This document shows, piece after piece, positions 11,915-21,463 of a stretch of 21,463 nucleotides of DNA (position 1 is the first letter of the stretch; every line of letters starts with the position of its first letter). Origin of the DNA: a virus; the IMG/VR virus record IMGVR_UViG_3300038825_000583, positions 1 to 21,463 of that record; one strand, given 5' to 3'. Position numbers and translations under genes: made by a program. The notes beneath the pieces were generated by a model. That model was not told where the DNA came from, did not search any database, and saw only the letters and a program-made list of their open reading frames with translations.

Positions 11915-12682
11915 CTATTTTCTATACTTTCTTTTTAAGTAATGTAATGGTATAGCACATTCATCAAATGAACCATCCTCCACATTGTGTAACATGTACA
12001 ATCCTCTCCAATGTTGATTAGTTTGATGAGACAAATAATCCTCATCGTGCACATAACAACTACCACTAATGATAGATGTCATCTGTTTGCCATCTGCTCT
12101 CATTCCGTATGCTATGTCATGACCTTGCTGATGACCTGCAACACAAGACATATGCTTCTTAGTTAAAAGAGCCCTAGCTGAAGTAACCGGTCTACCCATG
12201 ACACCACTAGCAAAATAGTGAGAATAAGCCACCCCGTCAACGCTAACGACATCCAGAAAAGGATAAACATCCCAACCAGCTTCTTCATATTTTAAATCCT
12301 CAAATGATATAAGACCATCTAGTTTTCTGTCATACTCAATAGCTGTGTTGATACGTTGCTCATGGTTACCCATAGTAAGTATCATCTTAGGTTTGTATAA
12401 CTTTTTCTTAGCTTTAGCTAGTCTCTTGTTAAGTTCTCTCATAGGTGTTAGCAATGCATCCATGCCCTTATGAGCAGCTTTAATATCTGCTTTGTAAGTT
12501 CTACCTTCAAAAGATTTTTTACCCACGTCGTAGGATGATAAGCTAGGCATATCTGCAAAGTCACCAATCATTACAATTACATCAGGTTGTTTGTCAACAA
12601 TATACTTACCTATCCATGTTAAGTACGAAAGGGAAATCCCAGGCTTAACCTGGGTATCTCCAATAACTAAATGTTTCTTCAT
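11915..12682 (-). CDS. Metallophosphoesterase (calcineurin-like) of phage type
   Basis: A 255-residue enzyme of the binuclear metal phosphoesterase superfamily. The motifs appear in order: GDTQ at 8-11, GDFAD at 40-44, GNHE at 105-108, the His-containing SHYF near 154-157, and GHQQGH at 183-188. The first motif usually reads GDxH; here Gln replaces the His metal ligand, so metal binding at that site may differ. The substrate is unknown; nucleotides, cyclic nucleotides or nucleic-acid ends are all possible. It starts at ATG 12682, overlapping the previous TGA as ATGA, and is the last gene before promoter P1. No signal peptide is present, so it acts in the cytoplasm. Confidence 0.85.
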   Translation of the reverse strand: MKKHLVIGDTQVKPGISLSYLTWIGKYIVDKQPDVIVMIGDFADMPSLSSYDVGKKSFEGRTYKADIKAAHKGMDALLTPMRELNKRLAKAKKKLYKPKMILTMGNHEQRINTAIEYDRKLDGLISFEDLKYEEAGWDVYPFLDVVSVDGVAYSHYFASGVMGRPVTSARALLTKKHMSCVAGHQQGHDIAYGMRADGKQMTSIISGSCYVHDEDYLSHQTNQHWRGLYMLHNVEDGSFDECAIPLHYLKRKYRK

Positions 12683-14674: not shown

Positions 14675-15385
14675 TTATATGTCAGTTAAGTTACCCCATG
14701 TATTTCCTACTTGTATATCAACCCTCATGGGTAGGTTGAATTCTTTACCAAACAAATGTTTAAAGTTTGCTGGTACATTTTCAAAAGACTCTTTAACTAT
14801 TTGTACTATACTATTAGTATAACATACCTTTGGGTCAAAGTCAAGCATGATAGAATCATGTACTGTATTAATAAGTTTAACACCTTCCATCTTTGCTATT
14901 TTGTTATACAAACTAATACGAGCTATTGTCATAAGGTCAGCACCGAGTCCTTGCACTGGGTAGTTAAGGATTCGTGTGCGTGGATACTTGACATTACCCA
15001 TACTGTTTGTTTCAGGTAAGTACTTGTAAGTTCTGCCAGTTGGCATAATAAGTTGATTTGTTTTCTTTACATCAAACATTAACTTATCGTGCCAAGCTTT
15101 AAGACCTGTATACTTATTGTAGAATTGGTCAATGACATTTTGCCAATAGGATTCATTACCAATATCTTTGAAGTTAGGGTCATTAGCATAACTAAAAGCA
15201 CTACCACCATAGATTAGACGGAAGACAAAAGTCTTAGCAATTAATCTAGATGGTAGTCCAAACCTGTTTTGATTGTCCGTATGTTGGTCAATCTCATTAT
15301 GTATTTCTTTATGTGCTGTCTTATCTTGTGATAAGAAAGATGCACACACCCATTCCAGGGCTTTAGCATCTGCATTTAGTATCAT
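14675..15385 (-). CDS. DNA polymerase family A, catalytic C-terminal half (split gene)
   Basis: A 236-residue chain holding the palm and fingers of a family A DNA polymerase. Motif A is DAKALEW with catalytic Asp6 and Glu11 (T7: DASGLE). Motif B, the O-helix, is R47...K51TFVF55...Y59G60, with Phe at the sugar-discriminating position. NYPVQGLGADL is at 141-151. Motif C is VHDS with Asp177. The chain starts exactly at motif A (MILNADAKALEW), so nothing of the palm core seems lost. The exonuclease/thumb half is a separate gene (15617-16786), separated by a 77-codon gene. TAGGAT precedes the ATG. Both halves are intact and well-started, which argues against decay, so the two chains probably assemble into one enzyme. 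Confidence 0.9.
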   Translation of the reverse strand: MILNADAKALEWVCASFLSQDKTAHKEIHNEIDQHTDNQNRFGLPSRLIAKTFVFRLIYGGSAFSYANDPNFKDIGNESYWQNVIDQFYNKYTGLKAWHDKLMFDVKKTNQLIMPTGRTYKYLPETNSMGNVKYPRTRILNYPVQGLGADLMTIARISLYNKIAKMEGVKLINTVHDSIMLDFDPKVCYTNSIVQIVKESFENVPANFKHLFGKEFNLPMRVDIQVGNTWGNLTDI

Positions 15386-15386
15386 G

Positions 15387-15620
15387 TTATAATCCTACAG
15401 TTTCTATTAATCTATGATGATATTCATTTAAAAATTTACTTCTTAATTCACCTACTGCATCTTCTGTTAAAAATGATAATGCATGTGAAGGTCCAAGATG
15501 TTCAACCATATGACTAAACTCAGTACCTGTAAAATGATGATGAGCTTCTTCTTGTGCTTGTTGTTCTTCAGCTGAATTTAGCTCGTTTTCTTGTGCTGCT
15601 AATATATCATCTCTGCTCAT
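15387..15620 (-). CDS. 77-residue protein inserted between the two polymerase halves
   Basis: An acidic, His-containing small protein (EEQQAQEEAHHHFTGTEFSH, then MVEHLGPSHALSFLTEDAVG and a basic-acidic helix to the end). No homing-endonuclease motif (LAGLIDADG, HNH, GIY-YIG) or zinc motif is visible. Its ATG overlaps the stop of the first polymerase half as ATGA, and its TAA is one base before the ATG of the second half. It is therefore translated in line with them. It may be a scaffold or subunit joining the halves, or simply the cargo of the insertion that split the gene. The family is not recognised. Confidence 0.8.
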   Translation of the reverse strand: MSRDDILAAQENELNSAEEQQAQEEAHHHFTGTEFSHMVEHLGPSHALSFLTEDAVGELRSKFLNEYHHRLIETVGL

Positions 15621-16786
15621 GTTGTTTCTCCGTATCGTGATAAAAAGAGAGTTTTAATCTCTCCGTCAAAGTTTTGCAGGTTAGGATTACTACTACTTAA
15701 CCTACCTGTTTTAGTTCTACATTGATTCAGTTGACCATGTATCTTACTATCTTTCCAGTTCATTGAATCAATTAGTTCAGGCACACCATGATAGTATGTT
15801 GTCATACGTTTTTGCATGGTAGCTCGTGCCAATATCGCTGCTAGTATTTCTTTACCAGCATTTGTTTTAGGTTTAAGTTTACGTAAGGTCTCTTCGTTTG
15901 TACTGTAGAAACCTTCTTTCTTAAGTTCTGTGTTAGGTAAAGGATTTATTTGTCTTTCGAAGACTTTATCTCTTTCATCCCATTTATACTTAACTTCGCC
16001 TGCACGTACGCCAGTTTTAAAATGTCCGATGGGGCGTTGAAAACGCTCTTTAATAGTCCCACCATAAAGAAAAGCAGAAAGATGCTCCCCAGAATTGGGA
16101 TTAAAACTATCGTAAGCATGATAGTTAAAAAGCTTTTGGTTAAGTTTGTCGATTTGTTCATGTAATTCATCTCCTAATACTTTAGATTTATCATAGTCGT
16201 ATATCATACCATTGAATTCCATTTCTTGTAGTACGAGTACGTCTTGATTCTGTAAAGATATCAATCGTTTCAAATGAGGAAGTTCATTGATTCTTTCCAT
16301 TTGTTTTTTCATTACTTTTTCTGTAAGTTCCACATCTTGCTTCAGGTAATCAGCAAGTATTTCTTGTGGTACTTTATCAGTATCAATACCATTCTTCCAA
16401 TAGTTCTCTTTAACTTCATCAAGCTTACTTCCCAGTTCATAATACTCTGCAGTACCATTCAAGGATGGGTAAGCTAGGTCTTGGTTGTTAAGTATATATT
16501 CTACTACTTGACAATCCCAGATGCGTTTACCAGTAAAGTTAATGCCATACCTGCGTAGCCAATGCAAGTCAAACTTTATGTTAAACCCTACAAGCACATC
16601 GCACTTATCCACGGCTAATTGGATTCGTTCTAGTGATTCCTTGTAGGGGTCAACGGAGTATTCTATATCATATACTACATACTCTTCAGGTGTAAGTAAT
16701 CCTACCATGCATAGCTTGTTGTTCTTATCGAACGGATTACCTTTATTACTAATAGTTGTTTCTACATCTAATACTAAATAACTCAT
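15617..16786 (-). CDS. DNA polymerase family A, 3'-5' exonuclease and thumb N-terminal half (split gene)
   Basis: A 389-residue chain. The proofreading exonuclease motifs are complete: LDVET (Asp7, Glu9), GFNIKFD (Asn69, Asp73) and DYLKQD (Tyr147, Asp151). Next come the thumb region (about 165-300, with FNPNSGEHLSAFLYGG) and the first palm segment TGRLSSSNPNLQN at 360-372. The chain stops at LFLSRYGETT, just before where motif A would begin; motif A opens the separate chain encoded at 14675-15385. Together they total 625 residues, near T7 polymerase (704). The ATG overlaps the helicase stop (ATGA). Alone this chain could excise nucleotides but lacks the polymerising Asp residues. Confidence 0.9.
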   Translation of the reverse strand: MSYLVLDVETTISNKGNPFDKNNKLCMVGLLTPEEYVVYDIEYSVDPYKESLERIQLAVDKCDVLVGFNIKFDLHWLRRYGINFTGKRIWDCQVVEYILNNQDLAYPSLNGTAEYYELGSKLDEVKENYWKNGIDTDKVPQEILADYLKQDVELTEKVMKKQMERINELPHLKRLISLQNQDVLVLQEMEFNGMIYDYDKSKVLGDELHEQIDKLNQKLFNYHAYDSFNPNSGEHLSAFLYGGTIKERFQRPIGHFKTGVRAGEVKYKWDERDKVFERQINPLPNTELKKEGFYSTNEETLRKLKPKTNAGKEILAAILARATMQKRMTTYYHGVPELIDSMNWKDSKIHGQLNQCRTKTGRLSSSNPNLQNFDGEIKTLFLSRYGETT

Positions 16787-18018: not shown

Positions 18019-18710
18019 TGTAATATCTCCTCTTTGTTATATTCTTTAGGGTCTAGCTTACTAATAATAGCCTTACTAGTTTTACCAGATTGTCGTATAG
18101 TGTTGCGTATACGAATAGCTTGTTTAGCTTTGTCTCTATCTAACCAAACATATATAGACTCATATTGTTTAGTTAACTGGGCGAGAACTTGCTTGCTCAG
18201 AGAGCTGCCAAGCAAAGGCGTAGCACAATATCCTTCACCTCTACATCTTGCTATTTTAATAGCAGACAAAACATCTTCTACTACTATTATTATATCACCT
18301 TCACCATATATTGTCAAGGGTTTCATACCTTGTGATGCATACTTATAGTTACCAAAGCCAAAGTTACGGGCTTGCCAGTAGCCTTTGTCTTGTAACAATA
18401 CTAACAACTGTCTACTTGCATTCCAACATATACCATACTTTTTTATTTCGGCTGGTGTTATGTTGTATTTAAGTAACCATTGCATACCTTTTTGTGGTAT
18501 ATCTTTTACTGTTTCAAGTAAAGATGACACATTCTGCACACTTTGTTGCGTTCGCTGCTTGATGCGCTCTCGCAACGAAGCAGTGTCAGTTTTAGAATCA
18601 TACTTACCACAACTAAAGCAATAATAATTATCAGCATACTCACCCCTAGCATCACTAGAACCACAGTGAGGGCAAGGTCCTAGTTTTATAAAGTTACTCG
18701 TCATATTCAT
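18003..18710 (-). CDS. DNA primase with zinc-binding and Toprim domains (T7 gp4A N-terminal half-like)
   Basis: A 235-residue primase that makes RNA primers for lagging-strand synthesis. The zinc module is Cys13-x2-Cys16 and Cys31-x2-Cys34 (GPCPHCG, YYCFSCG), matching T7 gp4's four-Cys template-reading finger. The Toprim catalytic core shows Glu145 (IIVVEDVLSA) and Asp191-x-Asp193 (VWLDRDKA). GFGNYKYASQG (118-128) fits the RNA-polymerising domain. The start is ATG 18710 or the in-frame ATG 18704. Neither has a strong ribosome site, and both overlap or follow the end of the 58-residue gene, suggesting coupling. It ends inside the helicase start, so primase and helicase are made together and may associate as two chains. 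Confidence 0.9.
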   Translation of the reverse strand: MNMTSNFIKLGPCPHCGSSDARGEYADNYYCFSCGKYDSKTDTASLRERIKQRTQQSVQNVSSLLETVKDIPQKGMQWLLKYNITPAEIKKYGICWNASRQLLVLLQDKGYWQARNFGFGNYKYASQGMKPLTIYGEGDIIIVVEDVLSAIKIARCRGEGYCATPLLGSSLSKQVLAQLTKQYESIYVWLDRDKAKQAIRIRNTIRQSGKTSKAIISKLDPKEYNKEEILQWLKS

Positions 18711-18870
18711 CTTCTACATGACGTAAGTCTTCTCGTTCATCTATGTCAATAACATCACTTTGTATAGTACCAAAGCATTTGTTACATAGGTCTACAAACT
18801 CACCTGACTCATGATGTTTACGAGTAGACTCAAAGTCAGATAAGTTTTTATCACAAGCTCTACATCTCAT
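18694..18870 (-). CDS. 58-residue zinc-ribbon protein
   Basis: A short gene encoding MRCRACDKNLSDFESTRKHH, then ESGEFVDLCNKCFGTIQSDV and an acidic end. Cys3/Cys6 and Cys29/Cys32 make two CxxC knuckles, a clear small zinc ribbon. The start is an ATGA overlap with the preceding gene, and the end overlaps the primase start by 17 bases. Proteins of this form are common in T7-like marine phage replication regions, but I know of no assigned function. Its place directly before the zinc-dependent primase suggests it may assist DNA or polymerase binding, which is inference. Confidence 0.75.
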   Translation of the reverse strand: MRCRACDKNLSDFESTRKHHESGEFVDLCNKCFGTIQSDVIDIDEREDLRHVEDEYDE

Positions 18871-19137: not shown

Positions 19138-19166
19138 ATTATATCATACTTTTGACTAAAAGTCAA
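19138..19166 (-). promoter_or_regulatory. Sigma-70-type promoter P2 for the replication block
   Basis: The minus strand reads TTGACT (19166-19161), 17 bases, then TATAAT (19143-19138). Transcription is expected near 19131, so the leader to ATG 19116 is only about 15 bases and is mostly ribosome site. The -35 box overlaps the end of the amidotransferase coding region and one arm of an inverted repeat. The hexamers and spacer length match P1. Confidence 0.8.
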
Positions 19167-19167
19167 A
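19151..19167. repeat. 7-bp perfect inverted repeat overlapping the P2 -35 box, possible operator
   Basis: TTTGACT (19151-19157), AAA, AGTCAAA (19161-19167) is a perfect palindrome. One arm is the P2 -35 hexamer, the other lies in the spacer, and the stop codon of the amidotransferase is inside it. P1 has a weaker version, TTGA and TCAA around its spacer start. This geometry suits a repressor or activator site, though it may also form an RNA hairpin at the end of the upstream message. There is no U-tract. Confidence 0.5.
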
Positions 19168-20031
19168 TGATTGATTGTAACTATATGTTTCAGCATCATA
19201 CCATAAATTTACTACTGACATAGGAATATTAGAATAAACTACTGGGTCTCGATAAGAACCATCTACTAGTGTACATGTTTTATTTTTTTCATCAATTGAT
19301 TCTAATTCAAGCCATTCACCTTTCTTAATTACTATTGATGAATCGCCTATACCATAGTCATAGTCTTCGTTACAAACAACCCAATCACCAACAGCAAAAG
19401 AGCAGGAGCTTGAAGCTGCCGTGGGCAGCATCGTGCGATGCGTATTTTGCTTACCATAATTCATATATGGATATGTAATACTTTTAACTGGTTCAGGTTT
19501 CTTGTAGCTATTGTTACTATACCATACACCATTGTTCCAATGACCTTTCTCTTCATTCATAATACGATAGTTACCATGTCTGTCAAGAAAGACTAGCTTA
19601 CTATAGCCGATAACATTTTCAATAAGCTCAACAACTGGGTCTTCAAATAGTCCTATGTTGCCATGTTTATTTACTATCTTTTTGAGGATAGCGTTGTTGA
19701 ATTGTATGGTATCGGATTGCTTATCATCACCGTAACCAGAGATGATGCCATTATGAATAAAGCCAAGACCATTATTAACAAGGAACGGGTGGCAATTGTT
19801 TTTATCAATTGGACCGTGCGTTTTAATACGAAAGTGTAAAAGTACCTGTTTGTTCTCATGTGGTTTATACTCCTTGTAAAATTCTTTGAAAGTAAAGTAA
19901 CCTTTCTTCACATGTAGTTCTTTATCTTCTGCAAACATAAAGCCTGCACCATCTGGATTAGCATCATAACATCTTTGTAATGTAGTTTTACTAATCTTTT
20001 TGTTTTCTGATTTCATTATTGCTATGCACAT
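19156..20031 (-). CDS. Class II glutamine amidotransferase (Ntn-hydrolase), partner of the amidoligase
   Basis: A 291-residue protein of the N-terminal-nucleophile amidotransferase family, which frees ammonia from glutamine. The catalytic Cys2 follows the initiator Met (MCIAIM). Other active-site landmarks are NPDGAG (25-30), LLHFRIKTHG (64-73, with Arg68), NNCHPF (78-83), GFIHNGII (90-97) and SDT (106-108). The enzyme domain ends near residue 180. After a Ser/Thr-rich linker, a beta-rich C-terminal domain (FAVGDWVVCNEDYDYGIG, then KKGEWLELESIDEKN) looks SH3-like. GGAG precedes the ATG by eight bases. It overlaps the amidoligase gene by 10 bases. This pairing is known from phage amidoligase clusters and points to amide transfer onto a protein, peptide or cell-wall carboxyl group. 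The target is not visible. Confidence 0.84.
   Translation of the reverse strand: MCIAIMKSENKKISKTTLQRCYDANPDGAGFMFAEDKELHVKKGYFTFKEFYKEYKPHENKQVLLHFRIKTHGPIDKNNCHPFLVNNGLGFIHNGIISGYGDDKQSDTIQFNNAILKKIVNKHGNIGLFEDPVVELIENVIGYSKLVFLDRHGNYRIMNEEKGHWNNGVWYSNNSYKKPEPVKSITYPYMNYGKQNTHRTMLPTAASSSCSFAVGDWVVCNEDYDYGIGDSSIVIKKGEWLELESIDEKNKTCTLVDGSYRDPVVYSNIPMSVVNLWYDAETYSYNQSFDF
19407..19441. repeat. Three contiguous overlapping perfect palindromes in a GC-rich island
   Basis: AGCTTgAAGCT (19407-19417), GCTGCCgtgGGCAGC (19415-19429) and GCATCGtgCGATGC (19428-19441) follow one another with two or three shared bases. All are perfect. They lie in the amidotransferase's inter-domain linker codons, in a short GC-rich patch inside an AT-rich gene. 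Serial hairpins in the mRNA, a protein-binding site or a replication-related element are possible. Confidence 0.6.
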
Positions 20032-21461
20032 ATTGTTGACTCCTTAATGTAGTTATATAATTCTTTAAAGTCTTTCTTAGTGTTGGTTAACCATGATACA
20101 AAAGATTTAAAGTGGGTTTGTTGCTTCAATGATACACTATGTATTGCTGGTTTGCAATACTCAATCATTGCTTTTACAAATTGCATGCGTATGTTGAACT
20201 GTACTTTGTTAGCAGGAGTTGCAAAGATACGCAATTCAATTGTCTTTTTGTTGTTAAGATTAACAAAGTTATATCTACCAACATATCTATCTTTATATGC
20301 TTGACGATAAGGTGTCTTGATATCATAGTTAGGGTCAGAAGTTTGATAGTTAGTAGAACCACGACCAGCTATCAGTTTAACAAACTCTTTGTTATCTTCA
20401 CGATTCATAAACTCAACAAGTTTACCAGCACCTAGTTGTGTAAATGCTGTACGACTGATGTGTACATGCATACCACATGATATATGTGGATGTATATACT
20501 CTGGTAAGTCAGTCAAGAATGAATCGTATCGTGCTAGATGAGATGTATAACCTGCTGGTCTAGATACTAATTCAAAACCACCTCTTATACTACCATCATC
20601 TTTCATTAGAGCATGACCAAACATATTATCACCAACATACAATCGACCAGCTCTACGCTTGTCTACTTGAAACTCCATTTCAATACCAAGATAAGGTTCT
20701 GACTTAAGTTTCTGTCTATCAAAGCCTAATGTTTCTTCTACTCTGTGAGAATAATTATGTATTCTGTAATCACGACCACAACACTCAACGCATAAACCAT
20801 CTCTGGTTTCTTCTTCGACACATTTTACATCACATTCAGTGCAGCGAACTATATTAACAGTGCGTTCATCATAACAACTACCATCAATCATTACTTCATG
20901 TTCAAGTAAAAATGTATGATTATTTATATCATACTTATAACCATACTTTGATTCTAGTATTTCAGAGTTCATAGATAATTCACAGTGTTCTATTTTACCA
21001 GATAAACTAAATTGAGTCATCATGCTTTGGTAGTTTATTACTTTGGTAAGTGGACATTGATATAATCTAACTTCATTATCAACAAACTCTTTAGCTTTAT
21101 CAATCAGACTTGGATTAAACAAGTCATCTTGATAATTACTAGATAAGTAATCAAGCAATGTCTTTAACATTACTTGTGTAGTGTTACTACTTTTAGCAAA
21201 GCCCTTGATTCTACGAATCAAATGATTCTTGAATCCAGACTTTAACCTACCATCTTTGTATTTCATTTCTAATGGATTTATTGTGTAATATATAGCATCA
21301 AACATAGAACGATTATCATGATACTTACCTTGTATATACTCATGTGCATATTTGTTTATGCTTTGATTACGATAGACATATATATCCTCATCATCCCATA
21401 CCATTAGAGATAACTCAGGTTGGTCTTGTAAAGCTCTAGTTTCACTAAACTCTTCAGACAT
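20022..21461 (-). CDS. Amidoligase of the COOH-NH2 ligase type with internal zinc ribbon
   Basis: A 479-residue protein. Residues 1-200 are a helical N-terminal region not recognised. Residues 207-228 hold a zinc ribbon (CTEC, DGLCVECC). The C-terminal half carries the amidoligase (glutamine-synthetase-like) motifs: LGIEMEF (258-264) for metal binding, DDGSI (288-292), GFELVSRP (295-302), SCGMHVHIS (328-336), RYNFVNL (396-402) and TIELRIF (407-413). The family joins a carboxyl to an amine using ATP. With the overlapping glutamine amidotransferase it could amidate or link peptides on protein, peptidoglycan or a metabolite. The zinc ribbon probably helps bind the target. The ATG at 21461 is two bases from the window edge, so an earlier start outside cannot be excluded. 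Confidence 0.84.
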   Translation of the reverse strand: MSEEFSETRALQDQPELSLMVWDDEDIYVYRNQSINKYAHEYIQGKYHDNRSMFDAIYYTINPLEMKYKDGRLKSGFKNHLIRRIKGFAKSSNTTQVMLKTLLDYLSSNYQDDLFNPSLIDKAKEFVDNEVRLYQCPLTKVINYQSMMTQFSLSGKIEHCELSMNSEILESKYGYKYDINNHTFLLEHEVMIDGSCYDERTVNIVRCTECDVKCVEEETRDGLCVECCGRDYRIHNYSHRVEETLGFDRQKLKSEPYLGIEMEFQVDKRRAGRLYVGDNMFGHALMKDDGSIRGGFELVSRPAGYTSHLARYDSFLTDLPEYIHPHISCGMHVHISRTAFTQLGAGKLVEFMNREDNKEFVKLIAGRGSTNYQTSDPNYDIKTPYRQAYKDRYVGRYNFVNLNNKKTIELRIFATPANKVQFNIRMQFVKAMIEYCKPAIHSVSLKQQTHFKSFVSWLTNTKKDFKELYNYIKESTICA

Positions 21462-21463
21462 AA

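Follow-up and report, generated by a model that had tools for sequence, protein, structure and literature searches.

Two overlapping genes at the end of a marine phage sequence are best explained, on motifs, conserved residues and structural models, as a two-subunit glutamine-dependent amidoligase that would amidate a carboxylate, probably on a glutamyl or peptide substrate, and that would form the minimal core of a larger phage cassette. We give this reading a probability of about 0.6. The stretch of DNA analysed, here called the window, comprises the first 21,463 bases of an IMG/VR record of 22,168 bases. Its virus is a relative of the OM43 (Methylophilales) phages MEP401 and MEP402, with DNA identities of 94% to MEP402 and 87% to MEP401 over about two thirds of the window. 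Both of these phages are in culture and have complete genomes, and their host, FZCC0133, is also in culture (PMC10580990).

Earlier work on this phage group contains both the pair and the cell-wall/superinfection idea: it describes an amidoligase and a glutamine amidotransferase (GATase) in MEP401 and MEP402 and in more than 30 genomes related to them, classes the two genes as auxiliary metabolic genes and cites a superinfection hypothesis (PMC10580990). The main interest of the pair is therefore as a known cassette in its minimal form. What we add is a corrected gene, a test of folds and active sites, the obligate pairing, a nested dependency among cassette genes and an exchange of zinc ribbons with SH3-like domains; we found no earlier account of the last two in the papers compared, the founding 2009 study lying outside the comparison. 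As a preliminary description of this DNA had said, the two genes overlap; both are minus-strand reading frames, and they share 10 nucleotides. The features discussed below are:

20022–21461, minus strand: amidoligase (Amidoligase_2-like, predicted glutamine synthetase (GS) fold), 479 residues in the window, 5' end beyond it
20877–21461, minus strand: fast-diverging N-terminal region of the amidoligase, residues 1–195, extending upstream beyond the window
20781–20843, minus strand: amidoligase zinc ribbon, C207 C210 C224 C227, invariant in one of the alignments
20022–20711, minus strand: predicted catalytic GS-like ligase domain, residues 251–479, its catalytic residues unchanged or almost unchanged across 72 relatives, with Foldseek matches
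20022–20031, minus strand: 10-nucleotide gene overlap, ATGTGCATAG, possible translational coupling
19156–20031, minus strand: class II (Ntn) GATase, 291 residues
19498–20031, minus strand: predicted Ntn glutaminase domain, residues 1–178, with GlmS, PurF and EgtC fold matches and conserved residues
19198–19389, minus strand: SH3-like C-terminal domain, about residues 215–278, with Foldseek SH3 matches
18694–18870, minus strand: stand-alone 58-residue zinc-ribbon protein with a CxxC...CxxC pattern, encoded between primase and pair

The pair stands at the head of the replication module, in the orientation opposite to the structural genes, and is followed on its 3' side by the zinc-ribbon frame, a primase, a helicase and a split DNA polymerase, in that order. 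Relatives retain the overlap ATGTGCATAG even where amidoligase identity has fallen to about 37%. Most phages of the lineage conserve the 58-residue zinc-ribbon gene next to the pair, and its relative at locus L040 matches PF24734 (DUF7685) under the cut-off. The gene is at most a candidate member of the amidoligase/GATase system. Its product is similar to zinc ribbons inside some relatives of both the amidoligase and the GATase. Elsewhere in the window, the DNA polymerase region (14675–16786) is divided into two frames, 15617–16786 and 14675–15385, separated by a 77-residue frame that belongs to no known family; the OM43 phage group is already known to have split polymerases (PMC10580990). A calcineurin-like metallophosphoesterase (phrog_221) at 11915–12682 is likewise known from that group.

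Gene models, active sites and folds

The 479-residue reading of the amidoligase is a fragment, because the window ends inside the gene. In the parent record the frame runs upstream past the window edge and across a run of 38 N; the start lies some 60–70 residues beyond position 21463, for a full product of about 539 residues, compared with 548 in MEP402 gp06 and 540–570 in relatives.

All the motifs quoted for the two proteins were present: GIEMEF, DDGSI, CGMHVHIS and TIELRIF in the amidoligase, and Cys2, HFRIKTHG, CHPF and HNG in the GATase. The catalytic set of the ligase domain consists of E261xE263, D289G290S291, E297, H332xH334 and E409xR411, and residues E261, E263, D289, E297, H332, H334, E409 and R411 were invariant in an alignment of 72 amidoligases. 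The invariant residues among 64 GATase relatives include C2, R68, H93, N94, G95 and D107, which we take to be nucleophile, substrate-binding and oxyanion residues, as in GlmS and PurF; the class II signature (Cys after Met, Arg, oxyanion Asn-Gly, Asp) is thus present throughout, and the loss of Cys2 that had been looked for in homologues was seen in none of the 64. Both genes are under purifying selection (dN/dS 0.2–0.44). The motifs are not chance resemblances, since the catalytic residues are invariant, dN/dS is low and fold searches return the expected enzymes. The amidoligase also ends in an invariant CA, which we rejected as a sign of function because the conserved overlap ATGTGCATAG dictates both residues.

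The profile search that the preliminary description had proposed gave a divided answer. The window proteins themselves scored just under the curated cut-offs, the amidoligase, which lacks its N-terminal residues here, at 15.7 bits against 22 for PF12224 (Amidoligase_2) and the GATase at 18 bits against 23 for PF13230 (GATase_4). Their relatives matched in most cases, 61 of 72 amidoligases (E ≤ 0.01) and 54 of 64 GATases, and the amidoligase of locus L086 lay above the cut-off at 35.4 bits.

Structure prediction, set beforehand as the test of the assignment, found a GS-like fold; the ATP/metal site is read from conserved residues. The amidoligase was represented by the model of a full-length relative (L007, 82% identical to the window protein; pLDDT 92.6), for which the top Foldseek matches in the PDB were YbdK, glutamine synthetase, Dop and PafA. 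The TM-scores of these matches are low (0.17–0.36), so the assignment combines motifs with fold rank. A sequence profile search of solved structures with the amidoligase as query gave chance-level zinc-ribbon matches only, and it was the fold search alone that placed the protein. YbdK, glutamine synthetase and PafA/Dop have the GS-like carboxylate–amine ligase fold in common with the amidoligase at 8–14% identity; to our knowledge, they function without a class II glutaminase partner. A methylotroph gamma-glutamylmethylamide synthetase, considered as a clue to host metabolism, was rejected as one of many GS fold matches. Taken together, the model and the alignment predict that the amidoligase is a GS-like fold with an acidic/His/Arg catalytic set.

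The GATase model (pLDDT 81.6) matched GlmS, PurF and EgtC in Foldseek, and by sequence, NCBIfam and fold the best matches were the glutaminase domains of GlmS and PurF. The additional SH3-like end ascribed to this protein was recovered as well (Foldseek E about 6e-3, probability 1.00; pLDDT of the block about 69–83), and the protein is accordingly modelled as a class II Ntn glutaminase fold plus an SH3-like end.

Pairing across loci and the larger cassette

Viral contigs were scanned with both proteins and their alignments, and with four annotated phage loci this gave 89 deduplicated loci. Wherever both flanks were in view, amidoligase and GATase were neighbours, mostly overlapping or tens of bases apart. 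The order is reversed in L061, L062 and L064; in L134 the genes lie 1.5 kb apart; and in the seeming exception, L123, a C-terminal piece of the amidoligase frame lies directly ahead of the GATase. Pairing is essentially universal in well-viewed loci, and the proposal of a dedicated pair of GS-fold amidoligase and class II glutaminase was borne out by folds, by residues and at every such locus. No fusion of the two proteins occurred among loci L001–L136. The two genes also co-diversify: the distance matrices of their cores have a correlation of r = 0.82, and none of 1000 shuffles exceeded 0.21; the shared descent of neighbouring genes accounts for part of this correlation.

Clustering of the neighbours revealed two recurrent extra genes, an ATP-grasp ligase and a gamma-glutamyl cyclotransferase (GGCT). 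In a sister group the ATP-grasp ligase is the next gene, or nearly the next, downstream of the GATase, and its family is related to RimK glutamate ligases (NCBIfam, 1e-8). A profile of it built without phiEco32 or LUZ24 matched phi32_80 of phiEco32 (7e-56) and gp21 of LUZ24 (6e-45). The GGCT (PF06094, above cut-off) is directly downstream in L032, L034, L038 and L039, which are closer relatives of the window; in L087 it separates the amidoligase from the GATase. Downstream sequence reached 3 kb or more in 65 pair loci. The pair stood alone in 45 of these, with the ATP-grasp ligase in 13, with GGCT in seven and with both in none, so that 52 of the 65 have no ATP-grasp ligase. In a scan from the ATP-grasp side, 53 of 55 fully viewed loci had amidoligase and GATase next to the ATP-grasp gene, a fraction biased by the seeding of that scan from pair-adjacent loci. 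This one-sided dependency suggests that the ATP-grasp ligase needs the product of the pair, presumably by acting on it, and that the converse does not hold. The nested gene content would then imply a sequence of action, with the pair first and the ATP-grasp ligase on its product.

The closest precedents are phage cassettes of the type described by Iyer, Aravind and colleagues, as the preliminary description had recognized and as they are cited in PMC10580990 and PMC5498523. Cell-wall modification by the cassette of phiEco32, LUZ24 and RIO-1 is a hypothesis in that literature (PMC5498523, PMC3890496). In these phages, as in the window, an amidoligase adjoins a class II GATase, and the ATP-grasp ligase and GGCT of the sister loci are homologues of the phiEco32/LUZ24 ones. 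A second COOH-NH2 ligase is annotated in LUZ24 and phiEco32. This ligase, the ATP-grasp ligase and GGCT are, in contrast, missing from the complete genomes of MEP401 and MEP402, and tblastn with the second ligase gave no match in MEP401, MEP402 or the window. For the ATP-grasp ligase and GGCT, absence is read from the complete MEP401/402 genomes, the window record being a 22-kb fragment. Since those genomes lack both genes, we read the window pair, by its gene content, as the minimal core of the phiEco32/LUZ24/RIO-1-type cassette. MEP401 and MEP402 have the same genes, order, overlap and place before the primase; sequence divergence is the sole difference (amidoligase/GATase identities of 86.7%/89.0% to MEP402 and 70.0%/80.1% to MEP401). 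The pair gp105/gp106 of mycobacteriophage Marvin likewise has two genes in the same order, at about 27% and 31% identity, but differs in its N-terminus and its mycobacterial host.

Proposed reaction, accessory regions and rival readings

In the reading we prefer, the class II Ntn subunit would hydrolyse glutamine through Cys2 and release ammonia, and the GS-fold subunit would use ATP and a metal ion to activate the carboxylate of a substrate and would then join it to the glutamine-derived nitrogen to give a carboxamide. In larger cassettes the RimK-like ATP-grasp ligase, GGCT and the second COOH-NH2 ligase would contribute extra steps. It is because related cassettes carry RimK-like, gamma-glutamyl and COOH-NH2 ligase genes that we favour a glutamyl or peptide compound as substrate, most likely a peptidoglycan precursor peptide or a protein. 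We infer what the product and target are, when the reaction takes place and what benefit it brings, as well as the passage of ammonia from one subunit to the other. Amidation of a host or virion component early in infection, as the preliminary description proposed, is one form that this reading may take. The sequence carries no pointer to peptidoglycan; were a peptidoglycan precursor the substrate, an altered wall might block superinfection. PADLOC returned no match to a defence system.

These cassettes have been noted for more than ten years, and their target is not shown in the literature compared. The pair probably amidates some cell-wall or protein target: a wall target would provide a chemical route to superinfection control, and a protein target a new phage modification of host proteins. 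The window-type pair is the smallest natural form of the cassette and is found in two phages that, like their host, are in culture, so in MEP401/402 on FZCC0133 the core reaction is accessible without the ATP-grasp and cyclotransferase steps.

The internal zinc ribbon claimed for the amidoligase is present as C207 C210 C224 C227, and its first CxxC, just ahead of the ligase domain, is kept in 70 of 72 relatives. The N-terminal region was modelled confidently in full-length L007, with no convincing known fold of its own among the PDB matches listed. Identity to close relatives is 75–93% in the ligase domain and 40–80% in the amidoligase N-terminus, 90–97% in the Ntn domain and 59–86% in the SH3 end. 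All four regions have dN/dS below 1. dS is unequal between domains too, a pattern that suggests recombination as one cause of the uneven divergence. In the GATases of L086, L088, L115, L126, L139 and L140 a zinc ribbon stands in place of the SH3-like domain. These patterns suggest that the N-terminus, the SH3 end and the zinc ribbons are exchangeable binding modules that vary target recognition. The idea that recognition may be new thus gains modest support, both from the fast divergence of the N-terminus and SH3 end and from the zinc-ribbon arrays that replace both elsewhere. The arrays themselves form the N-terminal halves of three amidoligases, with 15–17 CxxC motifs each (L063:5581–6828, L086:2219–3856 and L088:4927–6570).

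Of the alternatives, the one that fares best keeps the amidation chemistry, and so overlaps with our preferred reading, while making the target specifically a host or virion protein recognized by the zinc ribbon, N-terminus and SH3-like end. The accessory regions outpace the catalytic cores in divergence, some relatives have 15–17 CxxC motifs or have a zinc ribbon where the SH3 would be, and the GS-like fold includes PafA and Dop, enzymes that work on a protein tag. Rapid divergence also fits loose constraint or recombination, however, because dS varies by domain, and we regard a specific protein target as possible, at somewhat under one chance in three. More doubtful is a fuller version, a post-translational amidation machine whose glutaminase–ligase core swaps SH3-like, N-terminal and zinc-ribbon modules to track a changing host protein, with the ATP-grasp ligase acting only on the product.

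Slightly less likely again is a make-and-trim system like EgtA/EgtC. Here the ligase would couple a small molecule or peptide to a gamma-glutamyl or amino-acid unit, and the Ntn enzyme, instead of supplying ammonia, would cleave a gamma-glutamyl amide by hydrolysis. A protein with the class II glutaminase fold can also work as a gamma-glutamyl hydrolase, as EgtC does, and EgtC gave one of the significant fold matches to the GATase. The closest solved fold to the ligase is YbdK, a gamma-glutamyl ligase-like protein, and sister loci have GGCT, an enzyme that acts on gamma-glutamyl amides. The GATase is nevertheless closest to true glutaminase domains, and thiol or ergothioneine genes are not annotated in MEP401/402.

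We consider it improbable that the pair is a general metabolic one that shifts the host pool of glutamine, glutamate and ammonia with no specific target. Although the genes are filed as auxiliary metabolic genes (PMC10580990), a free-standing glutaminase would have no need of an obligate overlapping ligase, and the accessory recognition domains are retained and diversified.

Amide chemistry is used in other phage base modifications and the pair lies directly upstream of primase, helicase and polymerase genes, but a role in the hypermodification of phage DNA bases, the least probable reading, was rejected because no companion gene was found (thymidylate-synthase-like, hydroxymethylase, DNA glycosylase or nucleotide-kinase) in the annotation of MEP401/402 or among the scanned window proteins, and the genes that recur beside the pair encode enzymes of peptide and glutamyl chemistry.

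Unusual arrangements in other loci

The amidoligase followed by the GATase is found in the actinobacterium Virgisporangium. At L141:1–12612, from Pseudonocardia spinosispora, an open frame of more than 4,200 residues, open at both ends, has an amidoligase domain near residues 2001–2217, repeated PLSG-TP-like motifs and membrane-like segments; it looks like a giant multidomain protein, and the locus gave no GATase match. L032:3237–5066, on a contig shared with L013, holds a GATase, a cyclotransferase, a zinc-ribbon gene and part of a primase; a second C-terminal half of a GATase and a further primase come next, and the arrangement may be an assembly chimera. We considered whether that C-terminal half is a separate SH3 partner and set this aside, as the contig resembles a partial tandem duplication or chimera. 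Upstream of its GATase, a Flavobacteriaceae MAG contig (L140:1982–7304) seems to carry a second, divergent amidoligase; the GATase is followed by two small SH3-like frames, an amidoligase and a RimK-like ATP-grasp ligase. Finally, L087:3299–7696 has two amidoligase/GATase pairs in tandem, with the cyclotransferase between the first two genes.
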